Source: Russula earlei
Taxonomy: Eukaryota > Basidiomycota > Agaricomycetes > Russulales > Russulaceae
Assembly (NCBI GenBank): GCA_025769875.1
Contig: JAGFNK010000083.1
Location: 1 to 64,000, forward strand
Direction: 5' to 3'
Length of the DNA stretch: 64,000 nucleotides
Numbering within the stretch: position 1 is the first letter of the stretch; each line of letters starts with the position of its first letter. The notes under the pieces were generated by a model. The model was given only the letters and a program-made list of their open reading frames with translations, had not been told where the DNA came from and did not search any database. The position numbers were made by a program, and so were the translations under genes. Positions 51,984 to 57,244 of this stretch are shown here, in pieces.

Positions 51984-52859
51984 TCTGGACAGTCTCTCAT
52001 CATCCCTGTATTGACCAGCCAATGCTCAAGTGTCCACTCCTAACTCCCCCACTTTGGTTAACACCTCCTTGCGCCTCCCTTCTCTAGTGCTGTCACCGGT
52101 CCGGCTCGAAACCGCTTGGAGCCGAGCCAGAGCCGCATCTGAGCCGAATTAAGCCGTTAACGGCTCGCAGCTCAAAACCGTCCAGAAACGGCGCGAGCCG
52201 TTTCGAGCCGCTTCGAAGTGCTAGTCTGCCAAATTTGGATATGGTTGCTCAATTTGGAGAGTGGTCTGTGGCTGTCTGCGGTTTCGAGCCGTTTCAAAGT
52301 GCCAGATTTGGATATGGTTGCTCAATTTGGAGAGTTGTCTGCCACTCTGCCTCTGGAATACCTCTAGATTCAGTTACCGTTGTGGTCCTGTACGGTTGTA
52401 CCTCATATTTTATATCACCTTGACACAAGGGCCACTCATAAACAATCGCACTGGCAAGTACTTATTCCTTTTCCTTTGCTTGTTGAAGGCTCGGGTATGC
52501 AGGCTTCCTAGCACTTGCAATGTTGCACAGTACTAGTATAAGGGGTGCTGTCTGGCTGGCCACTGAATCACGCGTGCCACCTGCCCTTCCGACAGCCCAG
52601 GGCCACGCATTGCCTGCAGTCGCACCCGCTGAGTAGCGCCATCATCGGTCATCCGGCTTATGATCGCCGTCCTCTCTCCATCTTCGTCACGCAGACCTAG
52701 CCCCGACAACTCGATCTCAGGTGCATGTACGAGCGTCTCGGCTTTCATCTCGATTAATCAAGTGGTCTTCACTACAGTCTACAGCAGTCAAGATACTTTT
52801 GCAAAGCCCTGGAGACATCTGGTGGGAGCGAGAAATTGGTCTTCCTGACCAAGACCCCC

Positions 52860-53740
52860 GAGTGCCGGACGAACCTCATCGGCGCATTCTGGCAACCCGA
52901 GTACATCTTCATAGACGCCGCCTTTCTTGAAACCCTCCCTGTGCGCGAGTTCTCGAATGGCATGGCCGAGGTGGTAAAGGTGTGTATTTGTTTCCCTTCC
53001 ATTTCAAACGTCTCTCGTTCCGCTACGCTGCCATCACTAACCGCTCCCAATAGACCGCCGCCATCTGGAACGAGGTCAACTTTGCCACTCTAGAGTCGCG
53101 ACCAGCGGATATTGTCGCCGCCATTGAGACCCCCAGCGTCAACTATTCCGGACGCACCAGGAGCTGCTCCTGTCCGTCATCGTGGGCTCGATCTCCATCA
53201 AGTCGCATCTAGCCACCAACGACGAGCGCGAAACGACGGGGTTGCGTAACCTCGTCAACTTTGGCCACACAATCCGGCACGCGATTGAAGCCGTGCTCAC
53301 GCCCACCATTCTGCACGGCGAGTGCATCAGCGTCAGGATGACCCTCGAGGCTGAGGTCACCCACCAGCTTGGACACCTTGGGCAGGTCGGCGTCAGCCGC
53401 TTGACGCACTGCCTGAAGAGCTACAACCTGCCCATTTCGCTGTCGGACCCGCGCATCACGAACCTTCCCACCTCAAGACTTCTCACCGTCGACCGCCTCC
53501 TCGACATAATGCGCATCGACAAGAAGAACAGCGGACCCGAGAAGAAAATCGTTCTCCTCGCTACCATCAGCACGACTGTGGAGCAGAAGGCCAGCGTCGT
53601 CCCGGACGCGGTTATTGGCAAGACGCTCGCCGAGGCAGCCAAGGTTGTCCCTGGTGTGCCCACGAAAAACCCAGTTCGGATGGCCACTCCGGGTTCGAAG
53701 AGTATTTCCAACCGTGCCCTGGTTATGGCGCTAGCCCCGC
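52860..53740 (+). pseudogene. ARO1: AROM (pentafunctional shikimate enzyme) fragment: end of DHQ synthase and start of EPSP synthase
   Basis: Exon 1 52860-52979 ([28 protein letters not shown]); a 74-nt intron 52980-53053 (GTGTGT to AATAG); exon 2 with [20 protein letters not shown], then a one-base shift near 53160 and the long frame 53182-53740. Signatures are [14 protein letters not shown] and HGECISVRM (DHQ synthase metal-site region; the family has Gly where Arg stands in both) and [15 protein letters not shown] (EPSP synthase N-terminal motif). The shikimate, dehydroquinase and dehydrogenase domains are absent. The retained intron shows DNA-level capture. It cannot be functional. Confidence 0.9.
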
Positions 53741-53821
53741 CCGCAGTCGCAGCCACGCCTGTCGCACTCCCGGCGTCGACCCGCCATCCGTCTACATCGC
53801 GCGCCGCACTCCGCCGTCAGC

Positions 53822-54233
53822 ATGCCAACTCCGTTAGAATACCTCAAGCTCAAGTGGGATCTGGAGGACCTTATCGCCTCCTCGTCAAGACTCTGCATGC
53901 ACGACCGAGAGGACGTAGACGAATACTACCGGAGCTTCAGGGCAATCTGCGGTCCCCTTGTCCGCGCGCGTCGCCTGTCCTACGAAGATTGCGACGAGTC
54001 ATTCTGGCTCGGACTCCACCCGGACGACCGCCGGTTGGTCTCCCGACGCCTCGGCCCCTGGCGCACGAACGAACAGCTGAGGCAATTTGTTGAATTCCGA
54101 GAGGCGTTCGACACTTTGATCAAGATATTCTCTCAACGACCTTGCGACATCCGGTGGGAACAAGGCCTTAGACATCTCGGGAGAGTGCTGGACGAGGACG
54201 ACGATGAATACTTCTCGCGCCCCACATATACTG
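53822..54233 (+). CDS. Gag-like reading frame start inside the hAT cargo
   Basis: From ATG 53822: [59 protein letters not shown], ending about residue 137 at [13 protein letters not shown]. The FWLGLHPDD pattern and helical character recall retrotransposon capsid proteins of basidiomycetes. The frame stays open to 55108 through an Ala/Ser/Val-rich tract that has no fold. It begins directly after the AROM fragment. Possibly from the LTR-G family, whose terminal pieces lie nearby. Confidence 0.5.
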
Positions 54234-56530
54234 CCGTGTCAGCCTCCCCAGTTGTCGCCCCAATCTCGTCAGCGCCCGCACCCTCCATCCCATCCGCCGC
54301 CTCCTCAGCTTCACCCGTTCCTGTCGCCGTCCCCACCGCGCCTCCAGTCTCGCCCTCTGCTGCCCTTGTCGCACCCGTCATCGCCGCCACCTCGTCTGCC
54401 CCCGCCGCCGTAGCCTTAGCCACGACATCGCCTATCACCACCGTCCCCGTCTCTGCCCAGCCAGCTCCCGCGCCCTCAGCCTCGTCCGTCACCTCGTCCG
54501 TCACCCCGTCCGCCGCCACAGTAGCCTCAGTCGTGCCAGCCGCCGACTTCGCATCAGCCTCCGTCTTAGCCTCGCTCGCACTCGTCAGTTCAGCCCAGTC
54601 CGTCATAGCACCAGCATCGCCAGCCGCTGCCGTCTCCACCATGCCCTCAGCCTCAGCCTTCTCAGTCTCAGCCGCCACCACCGCGCCCCTAGTTTTGCCA
54701 GCCGTCTCCGTCGCCCCAGCTTTAGATCAGTCAACCGCCGCCACCGCGCTCTTAGCCTTGCCAGCCGCCTTAGTCTCGTCAGCCGCCCCCCGTAGCCTCA
54801 GCCTCAGCCACCGACGTCTTAGCGCCACACGCCGCCGCCTCCACCGTCTCACTAGCCACCGCCGCCACGCCCTTGTCAGCCACAGTCGCCGTCGCCCCTG
54901 CGTCGCTCTCAGTCGTCGCCTCCGCTCCGTCCGCCTCCGCCGTCGCACCAGCTCAGTCCGCCGCCACCTTCTCAGTCTCAGCCTCAGTCTTCTCAGTCTC
55001 AGCCGCCGCCTTAGTAGTTTCGCGCGACACCAGCACCGCCGCACCGCCGCAACCCCTCGCCACCAGCACCACCCCAGAAGACCAAGAAGGCCTCGGCCAC
55101 GAACTTAGCTACGACACGCCACAACAGGAGCAGAAGCCGCCGCCACACCGCCGCCGCAGGAGAAGCAGCCGCCGACGCCAACAGCACACCGCACGCCGCC
55201 TCCCACATCGCCTCCCCGTCCGTTCGCGCGCTCTTGCCCACGTCTGCTTCCGACACCTGCAGTGGAGACGACCCCACCACCGCCGCCGCAAGACGACAAC
55301 ACGAACAACGCGCAAGTCATACCCACGCCTTTCCACGACGCCATCGCCTACGCCCTTGACTTCTCGCCACCTCGTTGCCTCAAACGACCACGCCTCAGCC
55401 TCCGCCACAACAACACCAACAGGATCAACGACAACAACAACGGCGCGGTCGACGCTTGGCAACACCACGAGGCACGACGACACATTCGACACGCCGCAAC
55501 ACGCCCTGCCACCTTCCGTGTCGCCTCCAGCCCTCCTTCTCGAGTCCTCGCCACCTGCGTCTCTATCTACGAACTCACGCTCGCCGCCTACGCCTCCGCT
55601 CCTCGTCCACGCCCGCTGCCACCACCTGCAATGGAGACGACCACGCCGCCGCCGCCACAAGACAACACCACCGCCACGCAGCCGCCATCTCGTCACCGCC
55701 GCCCTCGTCTCCATCGCCTCCGTTTCCCATCGCCCTCGCCTCTTCCGTCGTCGCCATCACCGATCGCCGCCTTCGCGTCTTCACAAGCAGCCGCCACCGC
55801 CGCCTCAATTCAGGCGCGAAAGGCTCAAAACACTCGCATTCAGACGCTTGACCGAGGACGGTCAAAGTTTCAAGCCCCCGGGAGGTGTAAGGAGGATTCT
55901 GGCTGGCCACGGAATCACGTGCGGAAACGCGACGCGACACAACCCGACACCCTCTCGTCCCCGGACTCGCTACACCGCCATCTCGCCGCCACGCCTCGTA
56001 AAAGACGTCAACGAGGAACAAGTAGAACAACCCCACGAAGAATCGGATGATGAAGAACACGCCGCCGCCTCAGAGAAGCAGAAGCCGCCACCATCGCAGG
56101 CCGTTCGCCGACACACCCAGACACGCCGATAGCTCAGGATGCACGCCGCACGCCACGCGCTATTGGCCATGCGTGCCACCGCCACCTCAGTTGGAGGCGA
56201 CCACGCAGCCGTGGCCGAGACACGACGACAAGAGCAATAGCCGTGCTCAACGTCTGTGACAACTTCCGCCCACACCTCGCCTCGGAGCCTCTCGTGCCCT
56301 CCCTCCTAGCGCCCGACACCCGCCCTGCCTTGGGTCTCCTCCATCCCCAAGTCGTCGCAGCCCTCCGCTGCTGACAACGCCTAGCGTAAGGCACACGGAC
56401 ATCCCCTCGCATGGGATATTCCTGACTCCGACTTCACCTCCATCTCCACGTCTGCGGACGGCACCACTGCCCACAACGGTGCTGCCCTGCCTCCGTACAT
56501 CGCCTTCGTCCCGGCCCTCGCCCTCGGATC
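54234..56530 (+). repeat. GC-rich Ala/Ser/Pro/Arg module, CpG-intact copy
   Basis: Low-complexity coding-like DNA open in several frames on both strands. Parts recur in the foldback arms (17680-18360, 19290-19985), at 38831-39789 and at 46210-47044, always more CpG-depleted there. Because frames overlap and none is shared as an intact ORF, I treat it as a repeat, not a gene. Confidence 0.7.
55888..55976 (+). repeat. Collapsed LTR-G remnant
   Basis: tgtaaggaggattctggctg at the left and ccggactcgctaca at the right are the two ends of the 523-bp solo LTR G, here only about 89 bp apart. An internal deletion is the simplest explanation. A further partial match (tctggctggccac) lies at about 52548. 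Confidence 0.6.
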
Positions 56531-57244
56531 GCCCGCGGCGCGCACCCTCGCACTCGCAGAGATGCTCGAGCGCTGGCGCGCAGAAGCAAACGGGAAGGGC
56601 GGCTCATTCGCAGGCGTGATCGGTGGCTCGCGCTGGCGCGCGGAGTGGTATGACGTGTATCGAGCTCCGGGCGGCGAGCTGCGCACGGACGGACGAGATC
56701 CGCACTCTCATCAAGAAGCTGGGCGAGCCGCTGCGCTTCCGCCTCCAGTCATCGGGACGTGACCAGGAACTCATGAGGGGATACAGCTCTCCGGTTACCC
56801 TGTAGTTCTCGGCGATTGGGGACGCCTCATCATCATTTGTTACAATGTATCAATATATCCATCTATCTGGATTACAGTATTGTGCTTGCTACTTCAGTAC
56901 ACTTGGCATGTAGATGAGAAATTGAACTGATCACATAAGTTACATAAGGCAGCGGTACAACCGTACAAGACTTTGTGATCTCAAAATGGAAATAGATCCA
57001 AAAGTAGACATGACCCAAATGGGGCGGCTAACTCATAACTCAACGACGCAAGTGCCAAGTGGCAACAAGAGCATTCGAATGTTCTCAAAATGGAAAGTAG
57101 ATCCAAAAGTAGACATGGCCCAAATGGGGCGGCTCGAATCGGCTCAAGCCGCAAGCCAGGCTTGGCTCGGTCCGGCTCACCCAATCTGGCCAAGCCGTTG
57201 CTGAGCCGAACCGAGCCGGACCGGACCGAGCCGTGAAAGCACTA

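Follow-up and report, generated by a model that had tools for sequence, protein, structure and literature searches.

A non-autonomous hAT transposon of Russula earlei with an intron-bearing fragment of the AROM gene, probably a Pack-TYPE capture

The window considered here, the first 64,000 nucleotides of contig JAGFNK010000083.1 of the basidiomycete Russula earlei (assembly GCA_025769875.1), harbours a complete element of 5160 bp that carries a piece of the AROM gene. Its coordinates, 52085-57244, are exact. Judged from its sequence, it is very probably a non-autonomous hAT transposon of the Pack-TYPE or transduplication kind. It is bounded by an 8-bp target site duplication (TSD), and its short terminal inverted repeats (TIRs) are common to elements with a hAT transposase domain. 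No transposase was detected inside, a host-gene fragment with its parent elsewhere in the genome lies between the termini, and the loaded element appears to have transposed after the capture. In the following, C-numbers stand for contigs of the assembly, which is fragmented (1374 contigs), C83 being the contig of the window; L-numbers stand for chosen loci. In the genome searches only the best candidates were scored, so all copy numbers are lower bounds.

The TIRs of the family comprise 12 bp (TAGTGCTGTCAC/GTGACAGCACTA). Since most of the right ends that were read show GTGACAGCACTA or a close form, it is the right TIR of the window element, GTGAAAGCACTA, that bears the substitution. The motif GAGCCG/CGGCTC is crowded at the ends, with eight occurrences in the first 226 bp, six in the last 125 bp and two in the 4811 bp between. 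Over the whole window it occurs 25 times, as compared to 15.4 expected; 4 of 100 shuffles were equally high. The left end has at least 58 matches in the genome (40 of 95 candidates scored), the right end at least 43 (40 of 127). Perfect TSDs surround six of the nine elements with both ends read and facing each other, i.e., C83, C178, C118, C328, C664 and C20:158123. A Pfam transposase was not found in the five open reading frames (ORFs) of the element that were scanned, and none of the 147 matches to the hAT dimerisation domain (PF05699; 150 of 260 candidates scored) is on contig C83. Such matches are seen inside elements with the same ends, at C20:160518-160688 within C20:158123-166302 and in C22 (ORF E 7.5e-14). 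The original prediction of a non-autonomous hAT-type element, deduced from the termini, the duplication and the subterminal motif clusters, thus holds. The element on C20, 8.2 kb long and with the TSD GCAACAAG, is itself nested in the right end of another family member (L015 1077-1500).

Some observations fit this assignment less well. The end pairs of C22 and C571 lack a matching TSD, and in C173 the TSD matches at 6 of 8 bases. The dimerisation-domain matches of C20 and C22 contain a stop codon each. An intact transposase was not seen, nor was any activity of the element observed in what is genome sequence only.

The site before insertion is still represented in the genome. When the 400-bp flanks were joined across one copy of the TSD and used as a query, the junction was crossed at all 40 places scored, with 90-94% identity (2106 candidates). 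Of these matches, 39 span nearly the whole query; the remaining one reaches base 757. A 200-bp version of this query found an empty site inside the window itself, on its minus strand at 35.2-35.4 kb (173/200, ungapped). The abundance of the matches implies that the element landed in a high-copy repeat. An RVT_1 frame is close by, at 50264-51412. Empty sites at which the 8-bp repeats do not bound the element had been looked for; the repeats do bound it.

The captured fragment (Table 1) matches the Pfam families DHQ_synthase (E 1.7e-6) and DHQS_C (E 1.2e-23). The parts of two AROM domains that had been announced are there, a half of 3-dehydroquinate synthase and only the first residues of EPSP synthase. 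The parent AROM gene, a search for which the original prediction had proposed, was found on C357, and the fragment is 92.7% identical to it. The C357 gene shows the N- and C-domains of dehydroquinate synthase and EPSP synthase, and near its end type I dehydroquinase and shikimate dehydrogenase. The retained GT-AG intron aligns with an intron of C357. Retention of this 74-bp intron means that the captured molecule was DNA and not a spliced copy.

Table 1. Features of the element in the window, and host-gene pieces found in sister loci
Feature	Position	Strand	Remark
Left TSD CCCTTCTC	52077..52084	.	perfect 8-bp duplication; empty site
Left TIR TAGTGCTGTCAC	52085..52096	+	element start
Left hAT backbone; GAGCCG/CGGCTC clustered subterminally at 52102-52291	52085..52872	+	common to sister elements
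AROM cargo: 3-dehydroquinate synthase, C-terminal half; EPSP synthase, first residues only	52873..53729	+	Pfam, parent alignment
AROM intron, GT-AG, 74 bp	52980..53053	+	aligned with parent intron
High-copy retrotransposon-like repeat fragment: gag-like frame, GC-rich region, purine tract, first ~50 bp of putative long terminal repeat	53737..55939	+	repeat matches
hAT backbone, right part, with subterminal GAGCCG cluster 57130-57233	55972..57244	+	common to sister elements
Right TIR GTGAAAGCACTA	57233..57244	-	one substitution versus family
Right TSD CCCTTCTC	57245..57252	.	perfect copy of left TSD
Ribonucleotide reductase	L031		Pfam, placed singly
DUF155	L057, L055; L072 below cut-off		Pfam, placed singly
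Nucleoside hydrolase	L029, just below cut-off		Pfam, placed singly
Sec2p	L022		Pfam, placed singly
Clp-like AAA+	L063		Pfam, placed singly
Protein kinase	L076		Pfam, placed singly

In C178 the same AROM-bearing element has another TSD (GATCACTG) and has lost 53219-54944 from its interior. A copy with the AROM fragment beyond the element boundaries had been looked for; in C178 the fragment lies within them. C178 and C979 agree at 99.83% over 3468 bp, of which 1.5 kb is flank, and therefore represent one insertion site. The same cargo, about 99% identical, is thus found at no less than two TSD-bounded sites, C83 and C178/C979, and the TSDs differ. A 22-bp frameshifting deletion near 53156 is common to the window, C178 and C979 and absent in C17. 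Neither C118 nor C571 contains the AROM part. In the former, 52529 is joined directly to 54278, and sequence of another kind, about 620 bp, lies further to the left; in the latter, 26 bp separate 52425 from 54278.

Besides the window and the parent gene, AROM pieces were found at eight places, corresponding to seven sites, and all pieces found fall within a single parent block of 2.37 kb, C357:16386-18752. They tile positions 1507-3873 of the parent except for a gap of 48 bp, 2618-2665. The window covers 1507-2385 and C17 reaches up to 2617. C195 and two places on C80 (group B) have in common a 3.4-kb unit with AROM positions of about 1575-2561. C30 contains two EPSP synthase pieces; 2666-3307 adjoins the hAT left end and 2900-3873 adjoins the hAT backbone. 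The C17 copy has the same left junction as the window, and its AROM sequence is 96.0% identical to the parent. An inverted repeat, about 390 bp long and also present in L015, surrounds the C30 piece at the hAT left end (C30:79900-82700, L078). The AROM sequences adjoining the block, 650 bp on its upstream and 800 bp on its downstream side, matched the parent itself and nothing else (2/2 matches). By its appearance, the window copy arose through deletion from a larger AROM block; the capture goes back further and extends beyond a single element.

The junctions are informative. In AROM-free elements the backbone runs uninterrupted through GCCGGACGACGACTGGTTCTATT (C328 and C20; others differ by substitutions). 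The left junction of the window reads GCCGGACGA/ACCTCATCGG, in C17 the same apart from one substitution; the right junction, seen in C30, reads GGGCGTCGA/CTGGTTCTATT. To within 3 bp, both outer ends of the block meet the backbone at one point, GGACGACGACTGG, as would be expected of one insertion through gap repair. Both outer junctions display a microhomology of 2-3 bp, which accords with the gap-filling model of PMC8277862 and is so short that it may be due to chance.

Most probably, then, AROM was captured once, at the DNA level and by gap repair, after which the element transposed and its copies underwent deletions and decay of the CpG type. A genomic stretch of AROM, about 2.37 kb long, would have been copied once into a break inside a hAT element, some 0.8 kb from its left end, with 2-3 bp of microhomology guiding the junctions in a gap-filling repair. 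The loaded element would then have been mobilised by transposase from relatives, as the sisters hold remnants of a hAT transposase (e.g., C20:158123-166302). Separate copies would have shed separate parts after the capture, and in the lineage of the window a piece of an LTR-retrotransposon-like repeat would have come to lie behind the 5' part of AROM.

How the copies have changed bears on this scenario. The substitution classes leave out sites with a gap in the copies of the window, C17 or C195. At 10 sites all copies differ from the parent, four of them in the intron, five synonymous and one nonsynonymous (p 0.012), a pattern that points to change in a constrained parent. The private nonsynonymous and synonymous changes number 27 and 12 in the window, 9 and 3 in C17, and 17 and 17 in group B. 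Set against a neutral expectation with mutation rates roughly estimated from the copies, none of these departs from absence of constraint (p 0.62, 0.76 and 0.11, respectively). Frameshifting indels are seen in the window, C178/C979 and C17 copies, and decay proceeds as in unconstrained DNA. In the window copy, 15 of 162 CpG bases carry transitions, as compared to 18 other changes at 658 other bases (p 5.6e-4), and the C195 copy shows the same excess (p 2.0e-5). These excesses suggest cytosine methylation. The parent has no CpG excess (p 0.56).

Not everything supports a single capture. The left and right outer junctions occur in different elements, never together in one, and the AROM gene outside the block was checked over the mentioned 650 and 800 bp only. 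C17 shows no CpG excess (5 of 170 CpG bases, p 0.79). In C857, C32, C280 and C206 another sequence starts within a few bases of the AROM backbone point (the switch is at L029 1588, L030 1588, L035 ~1595 and, on the minus strand, L038 ~1476). This sequence is common to the four, with 81-99% mutual identity in the pairs reported. The point may be a hot spot of breakage, or the four loci may be another old arrangement. Its reuse by other sequence makes the coincidence of the junctions less of a proof for one capture. Together with C571, which has no TSD, it weakens the single-capture scenario, and the alternative of several captures gains for the same reason.

That alternative holds that nearly the same AROM segment was captured at least twice independently via a repair hot spot, once for group A (window, C178 and C17), once for group B (C195 and twice C80), and possibly again for C30. 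The AROM piece of group B is oriented oppositely relative to the hAT-like flanks, and its inner ends differ; the element ends of C195 and C80 were not read out. The tree supports group B and the pair of window and C979 at 100/100, does not order the parent, C17 and the window group, and gives group B no branch in common with the window/C17 group. Half of the coding changes private to group B (17 of 34) are synonymous, and this richness first led to a reading of two independent captures. It was displaced by the mutation-aware expectation, from which group B does not differ, by the tiling and by the common junction. Every AROM piece found lies inside the one block, the flanking stretches tested were not copied, and group A and C30 have one backbone point in common. 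The sites that conflict between copies, five of five, are CpG transitions, which makes homoplasy likely. We therefore consider several captures unlikely, though not negligible.

A much smaller chance is given to the idea that the AROM and retrotransposon pieces came in by nested insertion of another mobile element, e.g., a retrotransposon with transduced AROM. The retrotransposon-like block does follow directly after the AROM piece, and in C1366 a MAP-kinase piece is fused to the same start of this block. C17, however, keeps the left hAT junction and AROM, yet has hAT interior instead of the block to the right; in C30 AROM is joined straight to the hAT backbone; and the introns are retained. 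Finally, an artefact of assembly or repeats, or a gene duplication beside a transposon, can practically be dismissed: the assembly is indeed fragmented and C178 and C979 are nearly identical, but two elements that differ in their flanks and in their TSDs, perfect in both, carry the same cargo, and the empty site was matched across the junction.

The retrotransposon-like block in the window had been described as a gag-like frame with a remnant of a long terminal repeat (LTR). The frame indeed belongs to a high-copy repeat, which occurs in at least 34 further places with 91-93% identity (40 scored of 1136 candidates). A purine-rich tract is followed by a putative LTR start at about 55887, and the hAT backbone picks up again from 55972. 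The upstream continuation of the repeat is present in C639 and C744 and absent in the window and C1366. Elsewhere in the window the hAT family is represented once more, at 46225-47013: the part 46482-47013 is 88% identical to 55972-56505, and 46225-46494 is similar to the right flank of AROM in C17. On the minus strand, 40846-42721 contains remains of a pogo/Tc5-like transposon with DDE_1 (E 1.8e-14) and HTH_Tnp_Tc5 (E 1.5e-5) frames.

AROM is apparently not the only gene sampled by the family. The MAP-kinase piece of C1366 has MPS1 as its best PDB match (E 8e-12). In this locus (L074 1726-2925, minus strand) it is fused to the same start of the gag-like module to which AROM leads over in the window. 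Query 496-778, the MAP-kinase stretch, is found at 12 or more places with 93-100% identity (40 of 93 candidates scored), in C205 with a left family end on one side and a right one on the other; weaker matches of 79-89% are in C21, C816, C462 and C167. A parent was not found among the matches scored. The longer form in C167, in which an apparent GT-AG intron is kept (read by eye), was considered as the parent gene and rejected: over about 1 kb it is 89% identical to C462, a locus with a hAT element, and it may be another copy.

A scan for host domains covered 77 of 241 non-redundant ORFs of at least 75 amino acids from the chosen loci, low-complexity ORFs having been removed, and yielded 13 Pfam families; those placed singly are given in Table 1. 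The pieces of ribonucleotide reductase, DUF155, nucleoside hydrolase, Sec2p and protein kinase were likely captured within element bounds. The Clp-like AAA+ stretch recurs in two elements bounded by perfect TSDs, C328 and C664. A PRELI-family frame in C17 (L022 463-1134, minus strand; E 1e-24, read stop to stop) was discarded as a captured gene, being outside the left TIR of C17. Its upstream end and the left end of the C17 element are 48 bp apart, and this AROM-carrying element may sit in the 5' region of the PRELI-family frame.

It is tempting, though still somewhat doubtful, to regard the hAT family as one that has collected host-gene DNA again and again, with foreign DNA spliced in at an internal point where it preferentially breaks. 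Its copies would mutate at CpG like silenced repeats, and essential genes would thus have long near-identical stretches in common with silenced transposons. If true, the parents could, through this sharing of sequence, become targets of small RNAs. That one family seemingly sampled several essential genes makes the silencing of transposons that share sequence with such genes a testable matter.

Gene capture of this kind is not without precedent. The original prediction took the capture of an essential metabolic gene by a fungal hAT element to be worth noting. The capture is real; it is not a first, since transduplication of histone H3 by hAT elements has been published for Pyrenophora tritici-repentis (PMC3538342) and for Pseudocercospora, Cercospora and Sphaerulina (PMC6710886). 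Pack-TIRs including hAT have moreover been described in animals (PMC8277862). Among the papers listed in searches of the openly accessible literature, subscription papers being outside its scope, we found no capture of AROM by a transposon, no Pack-hAT in a mushroom-type fungus, no intron-keeping capture in a host of fungal type and no such range of genes in one family. The present case shows that neither plants nor animals are needed for gene capture by a hAT element at the level of DNA, with introns retained. Since a single genome offers the parent gene together with the insertion point, an empty site and derived copies, the gap-filling model can be checked base by base.

The histone H3 elements are among the closest relatives in kind: a fungal hAT with TIRs carries and amplifies a housekeeping gene, and the TSDs there also comprise 8 bp (PMC6710886). 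In P. fijiensis, however, H3 was captured intronless, for which a transcript or retrocopy is suggested, whereas in Russula earlei a partial gene was taken as genomic DNA with introns. The H3 elements hold hAT domains, while no transposase was detected in the window element; they decay by CpA>TpA (repeat-induced point mutation), the AROM copies at CpG. With the plant Pack-TYPE transposons, which include Pack-hAT of maize and rice (PMC8903248), our element shares the non-autonomous TIR structure, the gene fragments and the 8-nt TSDs; the host is a fungus, as its fused AROM gene also indicates. Of the 370 metazoan Pack-TIRs, 208 are hAT (PMC8277862). They resemble the AROM case in their internal breakpoints; their microhomology has a median of 2 bp, close to the 2-3 bp at the AROM junctions, which may be fortuitous, and a gap-filling model was proposed there. 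They are mostly single-copy, in contrast to the loaded AROM element, which transposed to two or more TSD-bounded sites and is accompanied by older copies. Capture of host genes by fungal DNA transposons, finally, is also described for TET/JBP genes, by hAT elements among others (PMC12730594), and for Helitrons in Pleurotus (PMC4289320). The former concern dioxygenase genes in many transposon lineages, with 7-bp TSDs in the hAT ones, and the latter rolling-circle elements.

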